Shown one piece after another: positions 15,355-56,390 of a DNA stretch of 64,000 bases. How positions within the stretch are numbered: the stretch's first letter is position 1; every line of letters starts with the position of its first letter. Source of the stretch: Actinomycetes bacterium (GTDB lineage: Bacteria; Actinomycetota; Acidimicrobiia; Acidimicrobiales; Palsa-688); contig JAKBAM010000001.1 in the NCBI GenBank assembly GCA_021809105.1, positions 310,001-374,000 of the forward strand. The letters are read 5' to 3'. Below the pieces are notes generated by a model. It did not search any database and was not told where the DNA came from. It was given only the letters and a program-made list of their open reading frames with translations. The translations under genes and the position numbers were made by a program.

Positions 15355-15731
<377 letters not shown>

Positions 15732-15749
15732 GATGGATGGCCATCCATC
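15732..15749. repeat. Perfect 18-bp palindrome
   Basis: GATGGATGG joined directly to its reverse complement CCATCCATC, with no spacer. It lies 24 bp before the 178-bp integrase-upstream repeat. It may be a recombination-accessory or repressor site of the element. It is not found beside the second repeat copy at 23.4 kb. Confidence 0.5.
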
Positions 15750-15773
15750 CGGACTCCAGCAATGGGCCGGTGG

Positions 15774-15951
15774 ACAGAATCCCGCCTACAGGCCGACTCA
15801 CCGTCACCACACCCGCCGATCGCGCTAAAACAGCCTCTGGCTTGCCGGTTTGTCCTCACCGCTGGTGCCCGCGGTGACCGAAACACACCGCTGTAGTCCT
15901 CGAAGCTGAGAATTTTTGAGGACTGATCCTGGGGTCCGGAAGGTGGTCCGG
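15774..15951. repeat. 178-bp integrase-upstream repeat, copy A
   Basis: Matches 23478-23655 base for base except at two positions (CTAAAACAG versus CTAAACCAG, and CCGCTG versus CCGGTG). It lies just upstream of the broken integrase gene. It includes a hairpin-capable pair AGTCCTC (15895-15901) and GAGGACT (15918-15924) around an AATTTTT run. Homology continues more loosely into the integrase start. Likely the conserved integrase promoter / attP-arm region of a family of elements. Confidence 0.85.
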
Positions 15952-44707: not shown

Positions 44708-46336
44708 TCATCCTTCCAGCCACGCCACGGCCTTCTTGCGCGACACCGGCCTCCAGGCGCGTCGCCACGACGACCGGAGTAGGTCGGCCTGGGCTTCTTC
44801 CAGGGCGATCAGCTGTCCTGCCGCCAGGGCGACCGCCGCCGACGCGCCTGATCCGACCCGACGCAGCCAGGTGGCAGCTACGACAGCGTCGTGGAGATTC
44901 CCGAGCACCGCCTGGAGGTCGGCGGCCGCTCGACCCATCGACTTGGCCTCCTTACCGCATACGGGCGTCGCGGTCTCGCAGCCGTAGCGCAGGCGCTTGG
45001 CGAAGAGGCGAACCTGGTGCAGGGCATCGTCGGAGGGAGCCTCGCCGAGCGCCCTCACTGCCCCCGCAAGGTGCCTCATGGGGCGAGCCACCGCAGCAGG
45101 GAGGACCTTGCGAGCGCGGAGGTCACCCGGGGCTCGCACCGCGCAGCCGCCGGGCGCCGGCGCTCCCGCAGGGGAGGGCTCTGCCTCCTCCACGACCGGC
45201 GGCGCCGTCGCATCTGCGACAGCCGGCTCCCGCCGCGGCGCCATCGGCGGATCCGCTACGGCTGCCGCCAACCGGTCGAGCAGCGCCGCGTAGCGGGGGG
45301 AGCACATGGACGCCACCAGAGCCTCGCGCGCGACAACCCGCTCTGCCCGCAGCGTTGCCAGGAGCGCCTCAACGGCCGGACCGTCATCGTCGGAGAGCAA
45401 GGCACCTGATGCGCGAAGGCGGTCGGTGAGGACGTCTGCGTCTCGGACTGCCCCGAGAGCGCCAGCCAGCCACCCCAGCTCCCGGCGCGCGGCCCGCACC
45501 CAGTCCCGATCCATTGAGCGCCGCAGTAGGCGCAAGTCCGACCGCAGACGCCGGGTGGCGACCCGGGCCTGGTGCACATCCTCGATGTCTTCGTCCAGGT
45601 GGATCCCGGCGTGGTGATCCACGATCCGCAGGTACCCATCGGCGAGCGCGGAGCGGACGATCTCAGTCATGGTCGCCTGACGCGACAGTGGCAAGGCCAC
45701 CACATCGGGCGGCGCCGATGCCGGCGCGCCGAGCGCCTTGACGACCTTTGCGCGATCGTCTCCACGGTGGGCCCCGGCGCGCTCCAACCTCTCCACCACT
45801 TCTTCGACCAGCCTCCGGCCGGCCGATCCGGCGACCTCCAACTCGAGCTCCCGGAAGCGGGCTGCCAGGCGGGGCCCCTCCATGACCGACACCACGTCGT
45901 CGTCGAGCTCGATCAACTGCCTGCCGCCGGAATCGCAGAGCATGATGCGCTGGCGGACCGTGACCAGCCGGGCGACCACCTCTAGGGGGACGCTGCGCCG
46001 CCAGCCAATCACCAGGGCGTCGACGTCGGCCGGCATCTCCTCCACGGATCCGCTCCAACGCATCTCACGCCGGACGACCATGGCTCCGTCCGGCGCCAGA
46101 GGCAACTTCAAGGTCCACTCGGAGACCACCGGCGACCCGCTCTCGACCTCATGGCGATGGCGCAGCGTGACCCCCGAGCGCATCAACCGCAGGTCCGGGG
46201 TATCGACGTAAGAGGCAGTCAGCCGGCGCTCGGCACGAGGTGATGCGGTGATCCCGGCTTCGCCGGTCAGGTCGGGCAGGACGAATCCCACCCCCGCCTC
46301 GAGCTTGACTTCCGACTCGACCGAGCGCTGGGCCAT
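44708..46336 (-). CDS. CYTH-CHAD domain protein
   Basis: 542-residue two-domain protein. The CYTH (triphosphate tunnel) domain, about residues 1-200, opens with ESEVKLEAG, the ExExK phosphate-binding signature. It also contains RHRHEV, EWTLKLPL and REMRWSG basic residues. The CHAD domain, about 225-540, is helical with the conserved His/Arg positions VHQARVATRRLRSDLRLLR and HQVRLFAKRLRYGCETA. CHAD domains bind polyphosphate, and CYTH enzymes hydrolyse triphosphates, so a role in polyphosphate metabolism or granules is likely. Acidic/Pro-rich insert near residue 380. Confidence 0.9.
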   Translation of the reverse strand: MAQRSVESEVKLEAGVGFVLPDLTGEAGITASPRAERRLTASYVDTPDLRLMRSGVTLRHRHEVESGSPVVSEWTLKLPLAPDGAMVVRREMRWSGSVEEMPADVDALVIGWRRSVPLEVVARLVTVRQRIMLCDSGGRQLIELDDDVVSVMEGPRLAARFRELELEVAGSAGRRLVEEVVERLERAGAHRGDDRAKVVKALGAPASAPPDVVALPLSRQATMTEIVRSALADGYLRIVDHHAGIHLDEDIEDVHQARVATRRLRSDLRLLRRSMDRDWVRAARRELGWLAGALGAVRDADVLTDRLRASGALLSDDDGPAVEALLATLRAERVVAREALVASMCSPRYAALLDRLAAAVADPPMAPRREPAVADATAPPVVEEAEPSPAGAPAPGGCAVRAPGDLRARKVLPAAVARPMRHLAGAVRALGEAPSDDALHQVRLFAKRLRYGCETATPVCGKEAKSMGRAAADLQAVLGNLHDAVVAATWLRRVGSGASAAVALAAGQLIALEEAQADLLRSSWRRAWRPVSRKKAVAWLEG

Positions 46337-46359: not shown

Positions 46360-49143
46360 CTATCCGCTGTTGCGCAGACCGGTGGCCAAGCCGTTGAGGG
46401 TCAACTGGATCCCCGTCTCGACGACCGGCGAGCGGTCACCGCCCCGCCATCTTCGCAGCAGCTCCACCTGGAGGTGGTTGAGGGGATCGAGGTACGGAAC
46501 CCGGTTCCGCAGGCCCTGGGCCAAACCCGGATCGTGGGAGAGTAGGTCCTCGCTCCCGTAGATCTTCCGCAAGGAGGCGACGCTGCGTTCGTGTTCCGCG
46601 GCCAGCCGGGACCACACCGAATACCGCAGGTCGTCGTCTGGGACCAGGGCGGAGTACCGCTCGGCGATGGACAGGTCGGTCTTGGCGAGCACCATCGCCA
46701 TGTTGGACAGCACCGAGCGCCAGAACCCCCATCGGAGGTGCATCGCCTGCAGCTCCTCCAGCCTCCCTGGGCCGCCGGCCATGAACTCCGACAGCGCCGT
46801 GCCCGCTCCGTACCACCCGGGCACCATGAGCCGGCTCTGGCTCCAGCTGAACACCCATGGAATGGCGCGCAGGTCCTCCACCCGTTCCGACGGCCTCCGC
46901 GCCGCGGGTCGACTGCCGATGTTCAACTCCGATATCTCTCGCACCGGCGTGGCCGTGCGGAACCAGTCCACGAAACCCGGGGTGCCGTAGACGAGGCTGC
47001 GGTACTCGGCCATCGACCGGGCCGCCAGCGCCGCGGCCACAGTATGGAAGCGGGCGGCATCCGCGCCGAGCTCGTCGGGATCAGCGGCGGTCGCCTCGAG
47101 GGCGGCCGCCACCAGCGCCTCCAGGCCGCGGCGGGCGTGGGGAGGGTCGGAGTACTGCGCAGCTATGACTTCACCCTGCTCGGTGATTCGCACTGCGCCT
47201 TGCACGCTGCCGGGCGGTTGGGCGACGATCGCATCGTAGGCCGGACCGCCGCCCCGGCCGACTGCGCCACCTCGGCCGTGGAAGAGCCGCAGGCGCACGC
47301 CCGCTGCTCGAGTCGCCGCCACCAGGTCCATCTCTGCTTGATGGAGCGCCCAGTTGGAGGCCAGGTACCCGCCGTCCTTGTTGGAGTCGGAATAGCCGAT
47401 CATGACTTCTTGCCATCCGCCGGCGTCGAGCACCGCGCGCCGCCACAGTGGTAGGCCGAGGAGGGCTTCCACGGTACGGCCGGCGTTGGCCAAGTCATCG
47501 ATGGTCTCGAACAGCGGGACTATCGAGGGGCCCAGACGCAGCACCTGCCCCTCTGCCTCCGGCCGGCACAGACCGACTTCCTTGCAGAGGACTGCCACCT
47601 CCAGCACGTCGCTGACCGACTCGGCCTTGGAGATCACGTAGTTGGCTACGACGGCGGGCCCCAGGCGGCGCACCGCGCTTGCTGCCTCCGTCAGGATGGC
47701 GAGTTCTCCGGCGGCCTGATCGGAGTAGGTGACGTAAGGGGAATGAAGCGGTCGTAGACGGGTCAGCTCCCCGGTCAGGAGCTCGACGCGCGCTGCCTCC
47801 TCGAGCCTCAGGTAGCTGTCGGTCTCCCCCGCTCGGGCCAGCAGCTCCGAGATGACCACCTCGTGCACGTCCGAGTTCTGCCGGAGGTCCATGCTGGTCA
47901 GGTGGAAGCCGAAGATCTCGACTCCCCGGCGCACCGGAGCCACCCTCGCGCGCGCCAGTGCTCCCGCTCCGTGACGCTCTAGCGAGTCCTCCACCGCCCG
48001 AAGGTCGTCGACCAGCTCCCCCGACGATGCGTAAGGCTCGAGGCGGGCCCGGGGCTCGGCTTCCGGGATGGTGCCGAGAGCGGCCAGCGCTGAGGCCGCC
48101 GAGCGGGCATAGCACCCGTTCATGGCCCTGCGGTACGGTTCGTTGGACCGGAAGGGCGAATCGTCGCCGGAGCCCTCCGCCAACGCTTCCACCGCCGGGG
48201 TGGCCCCGACCAGATCCCCGGACATCGATAGCTCGATGGCCAGACGGCGCAGGGCTCCCAAGTGGTGGGCGAAGGCTGTCGACGCTTGGCGCTCTACGGC
48301 GGCGGCCAGCACCTCCGCCGTCACGAACGGATTGCCGTCGCGGTCACCGCCAATCCAAGAGCCCATCCTCACCACAGGCTGGATCGCTTCCATCTCCGCG
48401 CCGGCCAGCTCGCCGAGGCCTCGCTCGTAATCGGCCTGCAGCTTCGGTATCTCGGCGAAGAGCGACGCATCGTAATAGTGCAGCGCCTGGTTGATCTCGT
48501 CGCGTACCCGAGGCCGCGAAGGGCGGAGGATCGCTGTCTGCCACAGAGCCAAGATCTCCACCCGGAGGGCGCCCTCCCACTCCGAGGCGTCCGCCTCGTC
48601 CATTCCGCCCCGGTCCCGCTCGCCGAGGAGCCGGCCGATCTCCCGGGTGCGGTTGAGGGCTGTTCGTCGACGCACCTCAGTCGGGTGAGCGGTCAGGACC
48701 GGCGTGACCGCGACGCTTGCACCGAGGACCGCCACGTCGTGGCGGGAGCGGGTCCCCGCGCCAAGGCGCTGGAAGGCGTGGGCGAGAGTACCTGGCGCCC
48801 CCCCGGACCCCGCCGTCCGCCGCTCCAGACGCGTCGCCCGGTTGGCCGCTACGTCCTCGGCCACGTTGGCCAGCAACGAGAAATAGCTGAACGCTCTCAC
48901 CAGGGGGAGGATCCACTCATCTGCCACGCCGCCCAGGAGCGCCACCAGCTGGCCCGCATCCGCGGTACCCCTCCGCTCTCCCGTGGCGGCTCGGCGGACC
49001 GCTTCGACCAGCTCGAAGACCTCGAGACCGGCCTGGTCCTGTATGACCTCACCCAGCAGGCGCCCGAGAAGACGGATGTCGGCGGAGGCCGACGGATCGG
49101 TCGAGGGGGGCTCCACCTGCCCAGTATCGTCCAACCCGATCAA
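46360..49143 (-). CDS. ppc: Phosphoenolpyruvate carboxylase
   Basis: 927-residue anaplerotic enzyme that converts PEP plus bicarbonate to oxaloacetate. The catalytic VLTAHPTEVRRRT (His153), the GGDRDGNPFV substrate motif, GYSDSNKDGGYLASNWAL, FHGRGGAVGRGGGPAY (Arg-rich loop) and the C-terminal VLSNMAMVLAKTDL and LRNRVPYLDPLNHLQ are all present. The extreme C-terminal RNSG is like the usual RNTG. TTG 49143 overlaps the PP2C stop (TTGA). Full length, so functional. Confidence 0.95.
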   Translation of the reverse strand: MIGLDDTGQVEPPSTDPSASADIRLLGRLLGEVIQDQAGLEVFELVEAVRRAATGERRGTADAGQLVALLGGVADEWILPLVRAFSYFSLLANVAEDVAANRATRLERRTAGSGGAPGTLAHAFQRLGAGTRSRHDVAVLGASVAVTPVLTAHPTEVRRRTALNRTREIGRLLGERDRGGMDEADASEWEGALRVEILALWQTAILRPSRPRVRDEINQALHYYDASLFAEIPKLQADYERGLGELAGAEMEAIQPVVRMGSWIGGDRDGNPFVTAEVLAAAVERQASTAFAHHLGALRRLAIELSMSGDLVGATPAVEALAEGSGDDSPFRSNEPYRRAMNGCYARSAASALAALGTIPEAEPRARLEPYASSGELVDDLRAVEDSLERHGAGALARARVAPVRRGVEIFGFHLTSMDLRQNSDVHEVVISELLARAGETDSYLRLEEAARVELLTGELTRLRPLHSPYVTYSDQAAGELAILTEAASAVRRLGPAVVANYVISKAESVSDVLEVAVLCKEVGLCRPEAEGQVLRLGPSIVPLFETIDDLANAGRTVEALLGLPLWRRAVLDAGGWQEVMIGYSDSNKDGGYLASNWALHQAEMDLVAATRAAGVRLRLFHGRGGAVGRGGGPAYDAIVAQPPGSVQGAVRITEQGEVIAAQYSDPPHARRGLEALVAAALEATAADPDELGADAARFHTVAAALAARSMAEYRSLVYGTPGFVDWFRTATPVREISELNIGSRPAARRPSERVEDLRAIPWVFSWSQSRLMVPGWYGAGTALSEFMAGGPGRLEELQAMHLRWGFWRSVLSNMAMVLAKTDLSIAERYSALVPDDDLRYSVWSRLAAEHERSVASLRKIYGSEDLLSHDPGLAQGLRNRVPYLDPLNHLQVELLRRWRGGDRSPVVETGIQLTLNGLATGLRNSG

Positions 49144-49844
49144 GCCTCGAGGTGGGCGCCCGGCGCCGTCTCAGGAGGGATGGCCCAGACGGCTACCAGC
49201 GTTCGGTCGTCGTGCACACCTCGGCGGGAGAAGTCGACGACGAGCGCCAGGTCCAAGGGGTCGGGCGCAGAGGCCAGTGCCGCAGCCAGTCCCGGCGCCA
49301 CGGTGGTCGGCCCATCACGGAGCGGATCGGCGATCCCGTCGGTGACCAGGACCAGCACGTCGCCGAGTCCGAGCTCGAGCTCGGCCACCTCCACCGCCGG
49401 TGTCTCCGCTGGAAGGGCCGAGGTGGCCGTGCGGATCGAGCCGACATCGGAGTCGGGCAGCCACACCTCCCGCCATGCCCCACCGGAGAGGATGAAGGCG
49501 CTCGAGTCACCGATGCGAGCAATGGCACCCCTTCCCGTCGCGTCGAGGAGGGCTATCACCAACGTGGTCGCACCTCCTCCGGCGTTGCGGACCGCCACGT
49601 TGGCGGCACCGATCGCCCGGACAACCTCCTCGCGGCCTGTCCCATCCGCGGCCGCCTCCAGGGCATACCTCGTACCCGCTTCGACCGCTGAGGCTGAGGC
49701 AGCTCCCGCTCCGGGACTGCTGCTGACGCCGTCGGCGATGGCGACGGCCAAGTGGCTGCCATCCCGGCGCCAGCCATAAGCGTCTTCCGGGCCGCCGCCC
49801 GAAGTTCGGTGACGGGTACCGCTCAGGGAGGCGGCCCGCACCAA
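49140..49844 (-). CDS. PP2C-family protein phosphatase
   Basis: 234-residue metal-dependent Ser/Thr phosphatase. Motifs are LAVAIADGVSSSPGAGAAS (DG), TTLVIALLDATGRGAIARIGDSSAFI (GDS), LVLVTDGIADPL (DG) and VHDDRTLVAVW (DD). These supply the full set of metal ligands. TTG 49844 is the only normal start after the last in-frame stop. The 127 bp upstream of it are open and look coding, so a non-standard start may lie further out. It sits between the VWA gene and ppc and is the phosphatase of a VWA/kinase/phosphatase triad. Confidence 0.85.
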   Translation of the reverse strand: MVRAASLSGTRHRTSGGGPEDAYGWRRDGSHLAVAIADGVSSSPGAGAASASAVEAGTRYALEAAADGTGREEVVRAIGAANVAVRNAGGGATTLVIALLDATGRGAIARIGDSSAFILSGGAWREVWLPDSDVGSIRTATSALPAETPAVEVAELELGLGDVLVLVTDGIADPLRDGPTTVAPGLAAALASAPDPLDLALVVDFSRRGVHDDRTLVAVWAIPPETAPGAHLEA

Positions 49845-49971
49845 CCACGCTTCGCTGTCCCCGCCGTCCGCCCGGATGGCAGCCCCCGACGCCGAGGCTG
49901 TGGACCGCAGCGCCCAGGGAGCGAGTGCTGCCGGCGACGGGCGCCCCCAGACCTGGCGGCCGAGCCGTCGA

Positions 49972-50679
49972 TCAGTCGAGCTGATCGACGGGAATCGGGG
50001 TCATGCCCGGGACATCGGGCGGGGTGAGCTGCGCCTCACCGCTGTACACACTGGCCGAGGAGCTGACGATGGAGGAGATCAACCCCTTCATGAGCTTGGG
50101 TACGACGGCGGCGGGCTCGGCTCCCTCCTCGGCAATGAACGCCCGGTCGGGCTTGCCTTCCACCACTGAGGCCAAGACCGCGGGGTCGGCATGACCAAAG
50201 CCGAACGCCAAGATGTTGGGCCGGCGCCTCCACGTCGGGTCGACCACGCGTGCATGCGCCGCACGCCATCTGGCTTCCTCGTCGGTCGGGCGACCGTCGG
50301 ATATGAACACCACCGCCGGCCGATACCAACGGTCGCCGCTGGCTCGGCTGGTGTGGTAGTCGGTCTCGATCACCTGGCGCAGGTGCTCGAACGCTGCCCC
50401 GTAGGAGGTACGGCCCTCGGCGCGAACCTCGGGCACCGCCTCGACCAGGCTCAAGTCGGACAGCGGGAGCACGGTGCGGGCCACATCGGAGAACGTCACC
50501 ACCGCGAAGCGAACCACCTCCGCGATGGCGGGATCATCGCCCACGCTCGAGCGGAGCTCCGGCATCTGACGGTTGATGCTGTCGATCGGCGCACCCGCCA
50601 TGGATGCTGAGACGTCGAGACACAAGTAGAAGGGAAAGACCGCGTAACGCTCTTCCACGCCGACGGGCTCGCTGTTCAT
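49972..50679 (-). CDS. VWA-domain protein (TerY-like)
   Basis: 235-residue von Willebrand factor A protein with intact MIDAS: CLDVSASMAG (DxSxS), EGRTSYGAAF (Thr) and VVFISDGRPTDEE (Asp). The whole protein is one domain, as in TerY proteins. TerY-like VWA proteins occur with a kinase-like protein and a PP2C phosphatase in the TerY-P triad. Both are the direct neighbours here. They are thought to sense or signal metal, oxidative or phage stress. The gap to the kinase gene is 43 bp. Confidence 0.88.
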   Translation of the reverse strand: MNSEPVGVEERYAVFPFYLCLDVSASMAGAPIDSINRQMPELRSSVGDDPAIAEVVRFAVVTFSDVARTVLPLSDLSLVEAVPEVRAEGRTSYGAAFEHLRQVIETDYHTSRASGDRWYRPAVVFISDGRPTDEEARWRAAHARVVDPTWRRRPNILAFGFGHADPAVLASVVEGKPDRAFIAEEGAEPAAVVPKLMKGLISSIVSSSASVYSGEAQLTPPDVPGMTPIPVDQLD

Positions 50680-50722
50680 GAAGCTCTCACGGTACTCAAC
50701 GCCGGCGGGGAGCCCAAGAGGG

Positions 50723-52096
50723 TCAGATCCCGAGGAATGGACTGACGATCATGGCGAAGAGCAGCAGCCCAACGCATGCCACGACGAAGTCGACCACGGC
50801 GCAGACCGCGGCGCGCCGCGCCCCGACCGACCGGCGCCCGGGAGTCCCGAGAGCGCTCCCGGCCCAGCGGTGGAGGGACTTCCATCCCGCGAACGCCCTG
50901 CGCAAGCCGGCCATGGCTTGCGCCGAGAGGGGCAAGTGGGCCGGCGGCGCGGCGGGAGGCGGCGTGGACGCCTGGCTGCCACGCGCTCCGCCAGCAGCAG
51001 GGATATGGCCGCCGGATGCTACCGGCCGGTGAAACGTCCACATTTCTGTCCTGGGCCGAGCCGGCCGGGGTCGCACCGCAACATCCGGTGCGGATGGCCC
51101 CACGATCGGTTCACCTGGAATGGAGGATGCTCCGCTCCCCTGCGCTGCGTGAACCGCTTCGAGGACCGCCGAGGCCCCGAGGCCGATCAGCACGTCGGAG
51201 AGCGCGGCTGACCACGTCGAGGCCGGCGGCCTGAGACCGGCCATGGAGGAGAGCCCTCGACCAAGCATCGCCCACAAGGGAGCGTCGGGCGCCATTGCCG
51301 GATTACGCAGTACCGCCGAGGGCAATGCCAGCTCCACCTCCACCGTTTCTGCCATCCTCTGACGCTTCTGGACGGGGAAGTGGCCTGCTCCGACGACCCG
51401 CAGGAAGATGAGCGCCAAGGAGTAGCGATCGCTGGCGAACCCGGGATTGCCGCCTGCCGGTACTGTCGGATCGTCCCAGTTGGGAGTCATCGCCCGCCGG
51501 CGCCCCGGCGCTCCCAGGGGTGCCCCAGTAGGTCCGAAGCGCTCACCGTTGTCGCAGTCAAGGAGAAAGACCTCCGGACCGCGCCGCGTGGACCACAAGA
51601 CGTTCTTGGCGGACAAGTCGCCATGACCCACGGAGGGACGGGCGTGCTCGAGCACTTCGAGTGTCCTCGCCAGGGCATAGACCAGACCGATGCGAGCGGC
51701 GTCCCCCTGGCCCGGCAGCACCAACCCGTAGGCCGCCGCCCGCCGCACCGGGTCGGCGGTGAGGTAACTGAGGGTCGCCAAGCGTGCGATGCCATCGCGG
51801 TGGCGCAGGGAGAAGCGTCTGGGGGCGCGCGCCATCAGCAGCCCGTCAGCCAGGCCCGGGGCAGCGCCCCGCACGACGCTCTGCGGCCATGCGGTGGCCA
51901 GGCGGACCCGCGTGGCCATGACTGGGTCCAGCGAGCCGCTCGCCGAAGCCCACACCACGAGATCCCGCAAGCTGCTCGCGTCGACCGGACGCCGATATTC
52001 CTTGAACAGGATCCCCGGACGGTCCAGGACCTCGAATACCCGCCCCTCGCCTCCCTCCGCCACCATGGCACCGAGGCGAAGGTCCGCACGCGCCAC
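50723..52096 (-). CDS. Protein-kinase-like protein with C-terminal membrane helix
   Basis: 457 residues from GTG 52096. Longer frames are copies of the VIT1 gene. The N-lobe has GGEGRVFEVLDRPGILFKEYRRP (glycine loop, Lys). The catalytic loop VGHGDLSAKNVLWS gives HGDLxxxN. The metal site is LLDCDN rather than DFG, so activity may be altered. Beyond residue ~330 come Pro/Ala-rich linkers and one C-terminal helix CAVVDFVVACVGLLLFAMIV. This resembles the helix-hairpin-helix-lacking kinases of TerY-P triads. It is upstream of VWA and PP2C genes on the same strand. Confidence 0.8.
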   Translation of the reverse strand: MARADLRLGAMVAEGGEGRVFEVLDRPGILFKEYRRPVDASSLRDLVVWASASGSLDPVMATRVRLATAWPQSVVRGAAPGLADGLLMARAPRRFSLRHRDGIARLATLSYLTADPVRRAAAYGLVLPGQGDAARIGLVYALARTLEVLEHARPSVGHGDLSAKNVLWSTRRGPEVFLLDCDNGERFGPTGAPLGAPGRRRAMTPNWDDPTVPAGGNPGFASDRYSLALIFLRVVGAGHFPVQKRQRMAETVEVELALPSAVLRNPAMAPDAPLWAMLGRGLSSMAGLRPPASTWSAALSDVLIGLGASAVLEAVHAAQGSGASSIPGEPIVGPSAPDVAVRPRPARPRTEMWTFHRPVASGGHIPAAGGARGSQASTPPPAAPPAHLPLSAQAMAGLRRAFAGWKSLHRWAGSALGTPGRRSVGARRAAVCAVVDFVVACVGLLLFAMIVSPFLGI

Positions 52097-52113
52097 CTCC
52101 AGAGGTGCTCCGA

Positions 52114-52902
52114 TCAGCTCGTCCCCACTCCCAACAGCGCGCCGACACCGAATGTGATGCCGGCCGACACAGCCGCGGCGGCCAGCTGGCGGACGGCGAC
52201 GCGTGCCTTGCCCCGCCCGCTGAAGGATCCGATGGCGGCACCGAGGATCGTGGCCACCACTGCACCGATGATGATCGATGCGATGACGGCGGGCGCGCCG
52301 TGCGTGAAGAACCAAGGCAGCAGCGGCAGGAGAGCCCCGATCCCGAACGACAAGAACGACGCGGCGGCGGCGCGGCTGGCCTGGGCCTGCTGGTCGGGGT
52401 CCACTCCGAGCTCCAGGCGGGTGTGTGTGTCCAGCGCCACCGCCGGGTTGGACGACAGGATCCGGGCCACGGCTTCAGCATCCTCGGGGCTGACACCGCG
52501 CGCCCGGTACATGGCAGCCAGCTCCCGCTGCTCGGCCTCGGGCTCGTCGGCCAGCTCTGCTCGCTCTACGGCGATCTCACGCGCCACCAGCTCCTGTTGG
52601 GCCCGAACCGACACCAGCTCGCCGGCAGCCATCGAGCAGGCGCCGGCCAGCATGCCGGCGATGCCCGCCAGGCGGACCGCCCCGCCGGCCGAGTTGCCAC
52701 CGGCAACCCCGAGCACCAACGAGACGTTGGTGATCAGGCCGTCCCCGGCCCCGAGGACTCCCGCGCGGAAGGTGCCCCCTTGCACATCGCGGTGGCGGTT
52801 GGGTAGCGGCACCGCTCCTCTGGTCAACCGGTGCAAGATGGCCAGAGGTCCGCTGTGCGCAAGCGAGTCGGCGACAGGAGCCATGCCACCAGCATCGCCC
52901 AC
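52114..52902 (-). CDS. VIT1/CCC1-family membrane transporter
   Basis: 262-residue protein of the vacuolar iron transporter family, which exports Fe2+ or Mn2+. The first helix region GVLGAGDGLITNVSLVLGVAG and MLAGACSMAAGELVSVRAQQELVAREI match the family, with Asp and Glu in the metal path. Four or five helices are visible; the cytosolic acidic segment DEPEAEQRELAAMYRARGVSPEDAEAVA is the usual metal-binding loop. Start could be the second Met (52884). It precedes the kinase/VWA/PP2C triad on the same strand, and 18 bp separate it from the chosen kinase start. Confidence 0.9.
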   Translation of the reverse strand: MGDAGGMAPVADSLAHSGPLAILHRLTRGAVPLPNRHRDVQGGTFRAGVLGAGDGLITNVSLVLGVAGGNSAGGAVRLAGIAGMLAGACSMAAGELVSVRAQQELVAREIAVERAELADEPEAEQRELAAMYRARGVSPEDAEAVARILSSNPAVALDTHTRLELGVDPDQQAQASRAAAASFLSFGIGALLPLLPWFFTHGAPAVIASIIIGAVVATILGAAIGSFSGRGKARVAVRQLAAAAVSAGITFGVGALLGVGTS

Positions 52903-52986: not shown

Positions 52987-54858
52987 TCACCAAGTGTCGA
53001 TGCAAGGCCGCTTGCGCCCGCTGCGAGGGGCCGGCGGAGGCGCCACCGCCAAGAGACGGGCTAGGTGATCGCGAGTGGCAGCAGGGTCGATCACGTCATC
53101 GACTTCGAAGTAGGTCGCCACGTTGAGCGCGCCACCCCTCTCGTACATGTCGGCCACCAGTCGATCGTAGGTCGCCTGGCGCTCGGCCGGATCTGCGATC
53201 GCCTCCAGCTCGCGTCGGAACCCCAACCGCACCGCCCCCTCCAGCCCCATCCCACCCAACTCACCGCTCGGCCAAGCCACCGTGCTGACCGGGACGTGGA
53301 GATGGCCTGCCGCCATGGCCTGGGCTCCGAGACCGTAGGCCTTGCGCAGGACGACCGTGAGGACCGGCACGGTCAAGCTTGCGCCGGTCACGAACATGCG
53401 CCCGAAGTGACGGACCTGGGCGTGGCTTTCTGCTGCGGGGCCCACCATGAAGCCGGGGGTGTCACAAAGGGTGACGATCGGTAGGTCGAAGGCGTCACAC
53501 AGCTGCCAGAAGCGGGCCGCCTTATCCGCCCCGTCGCTGTCGATGGCCCCACCGAGGTGGCGGGGATCGTTGGCGACCACTCCGACGGGACGACCCTCTA
53601 TGCGGGCCAAGGCGGTGACGATGCCGAGCCCGAACCCGTGGCGCAGCTCCAGCACAGATCCCCGATCGGCCACAGTTGCAATGACGTGGCGAACGTCGTA
53701 CACCCGCACGCGGTCCTCCGGCACGGCCTCGCGAAGGGACTCCTGTGGATCGTGCTCCCATCCTGCGGTCCGCCCCTGGAAGTACGAGAGGTAACGGCGT
53801 GCCACCCCTACGGCCTCGGCCTCGTCGGCGACGGCAACATCCACCACACCGCTGGCCACGTGCACATCGAGCGGACCGATCTCGTCGGCGGAGAAAAGCC
53901 CCAACCCACCGCCCTCGATCATCGCAGGGCCGGCCATGCCGATCGACGAGCCAGCGGTGGCTATGAGCACGTCGCAGCACCCGAGGAGGGCCGCATTGCC
54001 CGCGAAGCTGCGCCCGGCTCCGATGCCCACCAGTGGCACTAGGCCGGAGAGGCCGGCGAAACGGGAGAAGGCTTCCGTGTCGAGACCTGAGACAGCCGGG
54101 ACGTCCGTATCCCCCGGCCTTCCCCCTCCACCTTCCCCGAATAGGACGACCGGCAGGCGGAGGCGCCCGGCCAACTCGAAGAGGCGGTCCTTCTTACGGT
54201 GGCCCTGGTGGCCCTGGGTCCCGGCGAGGACCGTGTAGTCGTAGGCGGCCACGGCGCACCCCGCCGCCGCCTTCCCGAAGATGCCGGCGTTGACAGTACC
54301 CACGCCGGTGATCAGGCCGTCGGCGGGAGTGTCGGCGACCAGCACCTCGAGGGGCCGGCGGCGGCGCTGCGAAGCCACCGCCAGGCCTCCGTACTCGGTG
54401 AAGCTGCCTGCGTCACACAGGTCGGCGACGTTCTCCCTCGCGGTGCGCATCCCTCGCTCATGGCGGCGAGTAACCGCCGCCGGACGGGCAGCGTCGGCCA
54501 GCATTGCGTGGCGGTCCACGACACGAGCCAGGTCCGCTCGGGGCGCCCCCGTACCGCGCCCGGCGTCAGCGCGACCCCGTGCCGCGCTGGCACCGGAAGC
54601 GCCGCCAGGCGTGGGTCTCGTCGGGGCCGTGTCCAGCCGGAGCAGCACATCGCCCGCAGCCACCACGTCACCGGCGGCAGCCCGCACATCGATCACCACG
54701 CCGGCGGCCGGTGCCTCGACGCCATGGTGCATCTTCATCGATTCGAGGATCGCCACAGTGTCTCCGGCCGCCACCGCGATACCGGGCGCGACGCTCAGCT
54801 CGACGACGGTTGCCTGCATGGGCGCTCGCACCGGCAATGGTCCCGCGTCGGCGTGCAC
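52987..54858 (-). CDS. Biotinyl-domain/carboxyltransferase fusion (acyl-CoA carboxylase subunit)
   Basis: 623-residue fusion from GTG 54858. Residues ~5-80 are a biotin/lipoyl attachment domain with the biotinylation motif ESMKMHH (Lys). A Pro/Ala linker follows, then the carboxyltransferase domain in two halves: GIFGKAAAGCAVAAYDYTVLAGTQGHQGHRKKDRL through GSSIGMAGPAMIEGGG, and IVTLCDTPGFMVGPAAESHAQVRHFGRM. It would move CO2 from biotin to an acyl-CoA. The biotin carboxylase subunit is not encoded nearby and must be elsewhere. Fusion of BCCP at the N-terminus of CT is less common than separate or BC-BCCP arrangements. Confidence 0.85.
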   Translation of the reverse strand: MHADAGPLPVRAPMQATVVELSVAPGIAVAAGDTVAILESMKMHHGVEAPAAGVVIDVRAAAGDVVAAGDVLLRLDTAPTRPTPGGASGASAARGRADAGRGTGAPRADLARVVDRHAMLADAARPAAVTRRHERGMRTARENVADLCDAGSFTEYGGLAVASQRRRRPLEVLVADTPADGLITGVGTVNAGIFGKAAAGCAVAAYDYTVLAGTQGHQGHRKKDRLFELAGRLRLPVVLFGEGGGGRPGDTDVPAVSGLDTEAFSRFAGLSGLVPLVGIGAGRSFAGNAALLGCCDVLIATAGSSIGMAGPAMIEGGGLGLFSADEIGPLDVHVASGVVDVAVADEAEAVGVARRYLSYFQGRTAGWEHDPQESLREAVPEDRVRVYDVRHVIATVADRGSVLELRHGFGLGIVTALARIEGRPVGVVANDPRHLGGAIDSDGADKAARFWQLCDAFDLPIVTLCDTPGFMVGPAAESHAQVRHFGRMFVTGASLTVPVLTVVLRKAYGLGAQAMAAGHLHVPVSTVAWPSGELGGMGLEGAVRLGFRRELEAIADPAERQATYDRLVADMYERGGALNVATYFEVDDVIDPAATRDHLARLLAVAPPPAPRSGRKRPCIDTW

Positions 54859-54896
54859 CCCCGAAGCGTGCCCGCAGCGGCGGTACCCCGCAACCG

Positions 54897-56390
54897 TCAG
54901 CCGTCGAGAGTGAAGCTGCCGTCGCCGATCCAGGCCGTGGGCAGGGGCCGGTCGACCTCGCCACCGGAGAGGACCGCCATCACGTCCGGGTCGCGGCTGG
55001 CGCCCACCACCCGAGAATCGCCGGCTGTGCGCCCGTAGGCGTACGCCACCTCGGGGGCGCCGGTCCGGGCGTGCATCACGGTCCACGCCTCGAGTCGCGC
55101 CGTCCCTTGCCATCCCGGCGGGGCTAGGGGACGGTCCGTGACAGCGTCCGCCACCCGCTGGGGATGCCCGAAGCGGGGCTGGCCCTTCGGCGGGAACGCC
55201 GCGTACACACCGGCTGCGTGCTTGGTCAGGTGGCCGCCGTTGGCTGTGCAGAGCCCGTAGGCGTCGGGCTGGTGGCGGAGCCGTTCGACCATCGCGGCCA
55301 CGCTGTGGCTCACGTAGTTGTTCCACGGGCCGCCGGCGAAGGTCAGCCCTCCGGTCACGGTCAATTCTCGGTCCAGACCGAGGCCGAGCTCGGCCGCCGC
55401 CACCTGCACAGCCGAGGGAAAGCAAGAGTACAGGTCCACCAGGGCGACGTCATCGATCCCGATGCCTGCCAGGCGCAACGTGGCGACCCCGACGGCACGT
55501 ATGGCGGGAGAGGCGTCCAGCCGGTCCCGCCGGATGACGTCGACCTGATCGCTGGCGTGAGCACCGGCGTGGAGGAACACCCAGCGGTCACAAGGGATCC
55601 CGGCCGCGGCGGCAGTCTCGACCGAGCAAATCAGCAGCGCCGCGGCCTGATCGACACTGCTGTTGGAGTTCATACGCTTCGGATACGGCCAACCGATCAT
55701 GCGATTGACGGGGCTCGGCGCGGCGATCTCGTCTGCGCTGAGCGGCGACCGGATCGCTGCGTGGGGGTTTCCGGCGGCCACCGCAGAGAACCCGGCCCAC
55801 AGCCTGGCGACCGCCGCCATGTGCACAGCCGGGGGAATGCCGTCGGAGGCTGCGCTGAGCATCAGCGCCGTCTCGAACATCGGGTAGAACTGCACCGGAG
55901 CGACCAACCCGAGCGCCGCTTCCTCGGGCGTGGCCATCGACAGCTCCTCGCCCAGGGTTGCGCTCGGGGACGCTTCTGCGGATTGCTGAGACCACGGTGG
56001 CCTTTCACCGCGGGCCCTGTACCACGAGCGGGTGCGCCACGACTCGGCTCCCCCGATCAGCGCAGCGTCGAGCCGGCCGGCCAGGATCTCCTCGGCTGTG
56101 CGGTTGAGCAGCACCTGGGGCGTGTTGCCGCCTGGGGTGGTGGTGACGGTCTGGCGTGGGCTGGCCCCGACGAGCTCGCCTACTAGCGCCCCGGGGTCAG
56201 GGTAGGCCCGAGTCAGCAGGTTGACGACCCGGATCGAGTCGAGTCTCGCCAACATCCCCGGCGCCCCGGCATCTGATGCGGCCCGTCGAGCCGCCGAGGC
56301 CAGGAGCGCCACTGGCTCGGGCGCTGGCAGCTCGGGCTGGCTGATCTGCCCGACGCCGACAATGACCGGTGTGCGAGGATCGAGGGCCAT
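54897..56390 (-). CDS. Thiolase-like protein, TLP1 type
   Basis: 497-residue thiolase-superfamily protein. The position of the first catalytic Cys is replaced by GGNTPQ (TTTPGGNTPQVLLN). AGLCTANGGHLTKHAAG-like (here YGLCTANGGHLTKHAAG) keeps the C-terminal Cys-Asn-Gly-Gly-His element, and the extra C-terminal region of about 100 residues is that of TLP1 proteins. TLP1 members are common in mycobacteria and may have lost normal thiolase activity. It is between a true thiolase (22 bp upstream) and the carboxyltransferase gene (38 bp downstream). Function in fatty-acid or sterol-side-chain metabolism is possible. Confidence 0.85.
   Translation of the reverse strand: MALDPRTPVIVGVGQISQPELPAPEPVALLASAARRAASDAGAPGMLARLDSIRVVNLLTRAYPDPGALVGELVGASPRQTVTTTPGGNTPQVLLNRTAEEILAGRLDAALIGGAESWRTRSWYRARGERPPWSQQSAEASPSATLGEELSMATPEEAALGLVAPVQFYPMFETALMLSAASDGIPPAVHMAAVARLWAGFSAVAAGNPHAAIRSPLSADEIAAPSPVNRMIGWPYPKRMNSNSSVDQAAALLICSVETAAAAGIPCDRWVFLHAGAHASDQVDVIRRDRLDASPAIRAVGVATLRLAGIGIDDVALVDLYSCFPSAVQVAAAELGLGLDRELTVTGGLTFAGGPWNNYVSHSVAAMVERLRHQPDAYGLCTANGGHLTKHAAGVYAAFPPKGQPRFGHPQRVADAVTDRPLAPPGWQGTARLEAWTVMHARTGAPEVAYAYGRTAGDSRVVGASRDPDVMAVLSGGEVDRPLPTAWIGDGSFTLDG

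Follow-up and report, generated by a model that had tools for sequence, protein, structure and literature searches.

What does a bacterial signalling set made of a kinase, a phosphatase and a VWA protein control when it stands directly beside a metal transporter gene? We addressed this question in a window of 64,000 nucleotides, by which we mean the whole stretch of DNA analysed (positions 310,001 to 374,000, forward strand, of contig JAKBAM010000001.1 in assembly GCA_021809105.1), from a bacterium of the order Acidimicrobiales. On the minus strand of the window, genes for a VIT1 transporter, a kinase-like protein, a VWA protein, a PP2C-type phosphatase, phosphoenolpyruvate (PEP) carboxylase (ppc) and a CYTH-CHAD protein follow one another head to tail in that order; the adjacent kinase, VWA and PP2C genes, all on one strand, are called the triad below. 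The assignment of the triad to the YegI/PphC/YegL-type (TerY-P-like) modules is well supported. We tentatively read the locus, with a little less than even confidence, as a phospho-switch of this type with a membrane-tethered kinase, whose likeliest output is the export of divalent cations (Fe2+/Mn2+) through VIT1.

The triad and its linked VIT1

Our search of 99 genomes showed that the kinase gene was present in 28 of them, namely in 27 of the 32 genomes of the window's own family and as one weak match elsewhere in the order; its presence in 27 of 32 family genomes is therefore more than chance. The five family genomes without a kinase match were 61-89% complete. The VWA protein was found in 26 of the 32 family genomes, including all 12 of those with a completeness of 90% or more and a contamination of 5% or less. 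VIT1 was the gene immediately upstream of the kinase in 16 of the 26 readable genomes (in 15 on one contig, and in G020 as judged by two matches on contig C353), and the spacing between the two genes was -4 to 108 nucleotides in the 13 genomes measured. G014 was unreadable upstream at a contig end, and this 83%-complete genome gave no VIT1 match. On the other side of the triad, GDT1 (PF01169) was the next same-strand gene past PP2C in five genomes of four genera (G006, G007, G008, G010 and G020). GDT1 proteins are described as transporters of Mn2+ or Ca2+, which in yeast exchange these ions for H+, in the accessible parts of PMC8236900 and PMC10148156.

The VIT1 gene of the window (52114-52884, minus strand; ATG start at 52884, with GTG 52902 also possible) encodes a VIT1/CCC1-family divalent metal transporter whose domain is full-length (Pfam VIT1, E 2.7e-57, profile positions 1-213 of 214 covered). 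It aligned with the solved VIT1 6iu3 (E 2.5e-25), and along this alignment D43, M80, E102, E105, E113, E116 and E153 were kept, while E72 was replaced by G and M149 and M150 by H and T, respectively. The part of PMC10794610 available to us assigns D43, M80 and E72 to translocation and the glutamates to the metal-binding domain, and it states that E72 varies in other VIT-type proteins too. Loss of the metal-binding glutamates in the linked copies had been suspected from the tree alignment and was dropped once the residues were mapped onto 6iu3. VIT1 matches were found in 29 of the 32 family genomes, often as extra unlinked copies, and in the window's genome the triad-linked copy was the sole match. 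In a tree of 14 linked and 18 unlinked proteins, a subset of the copies found, one branch split the linked from the unlinked copies with a support of 85/92, which is under the tool's 95/80 star, and in 83% of the bootstrap trees; the tree output also warned of four long branches.

The kinase gene (50723-52096, minus strand) most likely starts at GTG 52096, 17 bases past the VIT1 stop; the mechanical start of the open reading frame (ORF), TTG 52315, falls within VIT1. Its product is a YegI-like protein of 457 residues with a protein-kinase fold. At a Pfam threshold of 1e-3 the window protein gave no match, and at E 0.1 the 24 aligned family members matched APH (16 of 24, best E 1.5e-5), TCAD9 (8 of 24, best E 0.0012), Kdo (5 of 24) and Pkinase (1 of 24). 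The AlphaFold2 model, made from an alignment of 22 sequences (the window kinase and 21 related proteins), reached a predicted local distance difference test (pLDDT) value of 86.1 and a predicted template modelling (pTM) score of 0.77. Foldseek matched this model to protein kinases, RIPK2 being the best (E 1.6e-8) and CTR1 and BRI1 also being among the matches listed. VIA likewise had protein kinases among the matches listed (Z 19.7, 257 residues, 3.5 A), from which a missing family is not thereby excluded. The profile of the kinase family aligned with E. coli YegI in hhalign over 268 columns (Prob 92.7, E 4.1e-7).

The kinase alignment covered 24 of the 27 kinase-bearing family genomes; G006 (frame-broken) and G008 and G023 (contig ends) were left out, and the G020 row was kept though it is without its N-terminus. 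In this alignment H158, G159, D160, N165, D180, C181 and D182 were invariant and G15, G16, E17, G18 and K32 nearly so. When two distant Nocardia proteins (22-23% identical) were added, D180 was still invariant, while C181 and D182 were not. The preliminary description of the locus had remarked on DCDN in place of DFG; the motif is indeed read directly in the sequence, but, as judged from the alignments, it is family-typical and not aberrant. Decay of the motif was ruled out, with D-C-D and H-G-D...N invariant in the 24 members and E. coli YegI carrying D-S-D (within I-D-S-D-S) where DFG is expected. In the accessible portions of the literature, YegI, likewise without DFG, is reported active as a kinase, and a cited title describes it as a kinase 'lacking conserved motifs'.

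At its C-terminus the kinase has a helix (residues 422-457; 50726-50833, minus strand) that is predicted to be a single tail anchor. Hydropathy reached a 19-residue mean of 2.77 from residue 433, and the model had residues 351-380 predicted disordered, followed by helices at 390-417 and 422-455; the second of these is strongly hydrophobic, with a basic flank just before it and at its start. A hydrophobic C-terminal tail was also visible among the aligned family members. Under the positive-inside rule the basic flank of a membrane helix faces the cytoplasm, which would place the catalytic domain in the cytoplasm and leave hardly any of the protein outside. The kinase would therefore be unlike a receptor kinase with an external sensor, and one would expect its signal to arise in the cytosol or to be passed on by a partner in the membrane.

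The stand-alone VWA protein (49972-50679, minus strand; Pfam VWA, E 1.6e-11) is YegL/TerY-like, with 32% identity to E. coli YegL. The residues of its metal ion-dependent adhesion site (MIDAS), D22, S24, S26, T91 and D128, were invariant in all 15 aligned proteins (14 family members and E. coli YegL). The PP2C-type Ser/Thr phosphatase (49140-49844, minus strand; Pfam PP2C_2, E 5.2e-19) is PphC-like, and its acidic residues D38, D169, D212 and D213 were invariant in the 12 proteins selected for alignment from the copies available. Its family profile gave a partial match of 62 columns to PphC in hhalign (Prob 92.5); both are PP2C. The earlier claims of a one-strand triad with intact MIDAS and PP2C sites, a kinase with a C-terminal membrane helix and a VIT1 gene directly upstream of it thus agree with what we found.

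Neighbouring genes in the family and the phylum

In the window, ppc (46360-49143, minus strand; Pfam PEPcase, E 3.4e-285, NCBIfam equivalog) is a lineage-specific neighbour that shares a 4-base TTGA overlap with the PP2C stop, provided that TTG 49143, its putative start, is the one used; given this start, the downstream coupling noted in the preliminary description stands. The CYTH-CHAD gene (44708-46336, minus strand; Pfam CHAD, E 1.6e-49, plus CYTH) is a lineage-variable neighbour and the only CHAD match in the window's genome. CHAD genes were found near the triad in G000, G001 and G008, the order in G008 being VWA-PP2C-GDT1-CHAD-PPX, and Ppx/GppA was located downstream in seven genomes of five genera (G006, G008, G010, G013, G015, G020 and G022). 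CHAD domains bind polyphosphate, as stated in the accessible part of PMC6537752. The region past PP2C could be read in 12 genomes of the VIT1 group, among which G014 was counted by its position in the tree; four others (G002, G027, G029 and G030) end too soon. In G031 PP2C was not found, and a Cas12f1/TnpB-like ORF (L038, 1-1515, minus strand) comes after VWA instead, at the place expected for PP2C. In G009 the kinase and VWA genes are separated by a gap of 1.48 kb with a 398-residue reverse ORF, perhaps an inserted element (L033, 4007-5200 in kinase orientation). Close pairs of VIT1 and GDT1 also occur without the triad: the distance between a GDT1 match and an unlinked VIT1 of another group is 3.4 kb in G004 and 1.2 kb in G018, where the GDT1 match is partial.

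A second group of family genomes, which is weighed below, carries a 2-hydroxyacid dehydrogenase with the triad. In a midpoint-rooted tree of the VWA protein, in which G024 has no row, a branch with a support of 100/100 separated nine dehydrogenase genomes from the remaining 15 rows. Nine loci of this group keep a context different from that of the window, in which the dehydrogenase and the triad are accompanied by a gene resembling Lgt on the reverse strand, by one of the alpha-amylase family and, in several genomes, by an MMPL transporter (the names Lgt and TreY were given by eye).

Upstream of VIT1 the window holds an ORF with carboxyl-transferase and biotin-attachment domains (52987-55425, minus strand), and in a genome of the same genus the region upstream of VIT1 matched this side only by a short 50% match. 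A bacterial RNase P class A RNA is located at 15435-15804 of the plus strand (Rfam, 240.6 bits). Plasmid relatives of the locus were rejected; the two matches (67-69% identity) were restricted to the VIT1 region, and one came from a record of 11.85 Mb.

In a sample of the phylum outside the family, the kinase profile matched 5 of 395 genomes and the VWA profile 17 of 395. Among 18 loci from these 17 VWA-bearing genomes, all three components were side by side in 10 (tblastn). Elsewhere in the order, locus G041 has a YegL-PphC-YegI set without VIT1. On this sample, VIT1 linkage looks like a speciality of the window's family. In one triad elsewhere in the phylum (L122, 7385-7943, in G256), two adjoining ORFs of about 90 residues were WXG100-like by eye, which recalls the link between TerY-P and type VII systems described in the accessible part of PMC4978471.

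Outputs considered for the switch

Judged from the gene neighbourhoods, divalent-metal homeostasis is the better-supported context of the triad. The preliminary description had proposed control of transport or of PEP metabolism. The link to metal transport is reasonable because the VIT1 linkage is conserved and GDT1 comes next past PP2C in five relatives, while PEP metabolism as an output is weakly supported. The conserved company of VIT1 in 16 genomes and GDT1 in 5 hints at this link but does not prove it, and the neighbours point only to a metal-related output; the metal-responsive input of the preliminary description goes beyond them. In such a switch the C-terminal helix would hold the kinase in the membrane, its catalytic domain facing the cytoplasm. 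The kinase would phosphorylate Ser/Thr residues of its own and of a partner protein, PP2C would take the phosphate off again, and the MIDAS VWA protein would serve as a Mg/Mn-dependent adaptor bridging kinase and target. In this Acidimicrobiaceae branch the output would be Fe2+/Mn2+ export by the adjacent VIT1 and, in some relatives, also by GDT1; polyphosphate, a binder of the same ions, may be involved as well. From the sequences and models we infer kinase activity, the membrane orientation, the adaptor role of the VWA protein and VIT1 or a nearby membrane protein as the target.

Several results weigh against metal export as the output. A 2-hydroxyacid dehydrogenase and not VIT1 was directly upstream of the same triad in 10 of the 26 readable genomes, G021 among them, and VIT1 is therefore not needed for the triad in general. 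No VIT1 or GDT1 was found by tblastn in the 18 triad or VWA loci of the 17 other genomes of the phylum, several of these stretches being ended by contig ends. The genes downstream of the triad vary between genomes: GDT1 matches were found in 23 of 26 genomes searched and beside the triad in only 5, the window genome's own GDT1 is on a different contig, and of the 17 genomes with CHAD (20 searched) only 3 had it next to the triad. By eye, no Ser or Thr was peculiar to the linked VIT1 proteins, one Thr of the cytoplasmic domain being kept in the linked and most unlinked copies. At the gathering threshold, neither a Mn riboswitch nor another Rfam family was found near the locus; the window gave RNase P alone, and the loci of 11 relatives gave nothing. 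The linked genomes, moreover, share descent and are not independent.

It is a real if somewhat doubtful possibility that the family uses the triad as a general stress or envelope switch associated with the membrane, with VIT1, the 2-hydroxyacid dehydrogenase, ppc, GDT1 and Ppx as co-transcribed bystanders fixed by vertical descent. The kinase is kept across the family while the upstream gene differs between the two groups of the VWA tree and the downstream genes vary, and both types of upstream gene are close to the kinase gene, where a shared promoter would explain either. Hitchhiking alone, however, would not favour the presence of two divalent-cation transporter families, one on each side of the triad, in several genomes belonging to a single group. 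The window's genome, moreover, has no VIT1 match other than the linked copy. Regulation of PEP carboxylase is very improbable: plant PEP carboxylase is regulated by Ser phosphorylation, and ppc, which overlaps PP2C in the window, also follows PP2C in G001, G014 and G023, but these four genomes, the window's own (G000) included, are four of the 12 readable VIT1-group genomes and belong to two genera, and ppc was not seen at this place in any genome of the dehydrogenase group.

It could also be that the kinase is a pseudokinase, which would bind nucleotide but transfer no phosphoryl group and would switch by binding, a view in line with the missing DFG, the absence of a Pfam Pkinase match for the window protein and the predominance of APH and TCAD9 matches in its family; we consider it improbable, the phosphotransfer residues being conserved and YegI, also without DFG, being reported active in the sources cited in part above. 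An anti-phage or DNA-processing role as a TerY-P module is hardly credible. According to the accessible part of PMC11090510, CoCoNuT restriction systems come with TerY-P triads, and modules like TerY-P whose kinase bears an OB-fold act as defence systems on their own, but the best PADLOC matches here had E values of 0.01 (mad6, kinase) and 0.029 (PP2C), the Pfam scan of seven window genes showed no nuclease, helicase or restriction domain, and the locus looks vertically inherited.

Returning to metal export, a more specific form of it, which we regard as unlikely, would make VIT1-kinase-VWA-PP2C-(GDT1)-(CHAD)-(PPX) a dedicated operon for cation and polyphosphate homeostasis. Under the direction of the MIDAS VWA protein, its tail-anchored kinase of the YegI type would phosphorylate VIT1 on Ser/Thr and so gate the efflux of Fe2+/Mn2+, the switch of the sister group having been re-wired to the 2-hydroxyacid dehydrogenase. 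If true, a triad of the YegI/TerY-P-like kind would have a physiological target in a role other than defence. The conserved genomic partner narrows the search for the function of YegI-type kinases to the membrane proteins VIT1 and GDT1, and the two family groups offer a natural comparison of the same switch beside different neighbours.

Comparison with known systems

The solved VIT1 (6iu3/6iu4) and bacterial VIT/CCC1 proteins belong to the same family as the window VIT1 and have D43, M80 and the metal-binding-domain glutamates in common with it, whereas the window protein differs at the E72 and M149/M150 positions and the linked copies form a group of their own. One narrow search of the literature found no paper on TerY together with VIT1, and the pairing is not thereby unpublished.

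The preliminary description had assigned the triad to the TerY-P type. The likeness holds: the TerY-P triad (Anantharaman et al. 2012, as given in the accessible parts of citing papers) also has a TerY-like VWA protein, a PP2C phosphatase and a Ser/Thr kinase as neighbours. Membership of a canonical TerY-P/ter system, however, was rejected. Neither TerD nor TerC, the other ter genes looked for, gave a match in the window's genome (92% complete), ter genes not being obligatory for every TerY-P triad. The kinase of the canonical triad carries a C-terminal zinc ribbon (PMC11090510, accessible part), whereas the window kinase has none, with just two Cys in residues 320-457 and a C-terminus modelled as a disordered linker and two helices.

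Actinobacterial sets near GAP1-N2 systems likewise have a kinase with transmembrane helices beside PP2C and vWA, as described in the accessible part of Kaur et al. 2020 (PMC7159879). In the seven genes of the window covered by the Pfam scan there was no GAP1-N2 partner; the window has VIT1 instead, and its relatives have GDT1 and polyphosphate genes.

Comparison with E. coli YegI-PphC-YegL showed that kinase, PP2C and VWA are shared as components, with the VWA identity given above and kinase homology detected by profile, but that the gene order is unlike that of the window triad. As far as the accessible reports go, YegI is membrane-bound, and it shares the GGEG loop and the replacement of DFG (by D-S-D) with the YegI-like window kinase; its in vivo function was called unknown in 2020 (PMC7535926, accessible part). 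YegI is 648 residues long and has an internal hydrophobic stretch followed by a long part with a sub-threshold HHH match, whereas in the window kinase the membrane helix forms the end of the protein, and the 17 annotated features around E. coli yegI include no VIT1. Taken together, the triad is closer to YegI/PphC/YegL and to the sets of Kaur et al. with transmembrane kinases than to canonical TerY-P.

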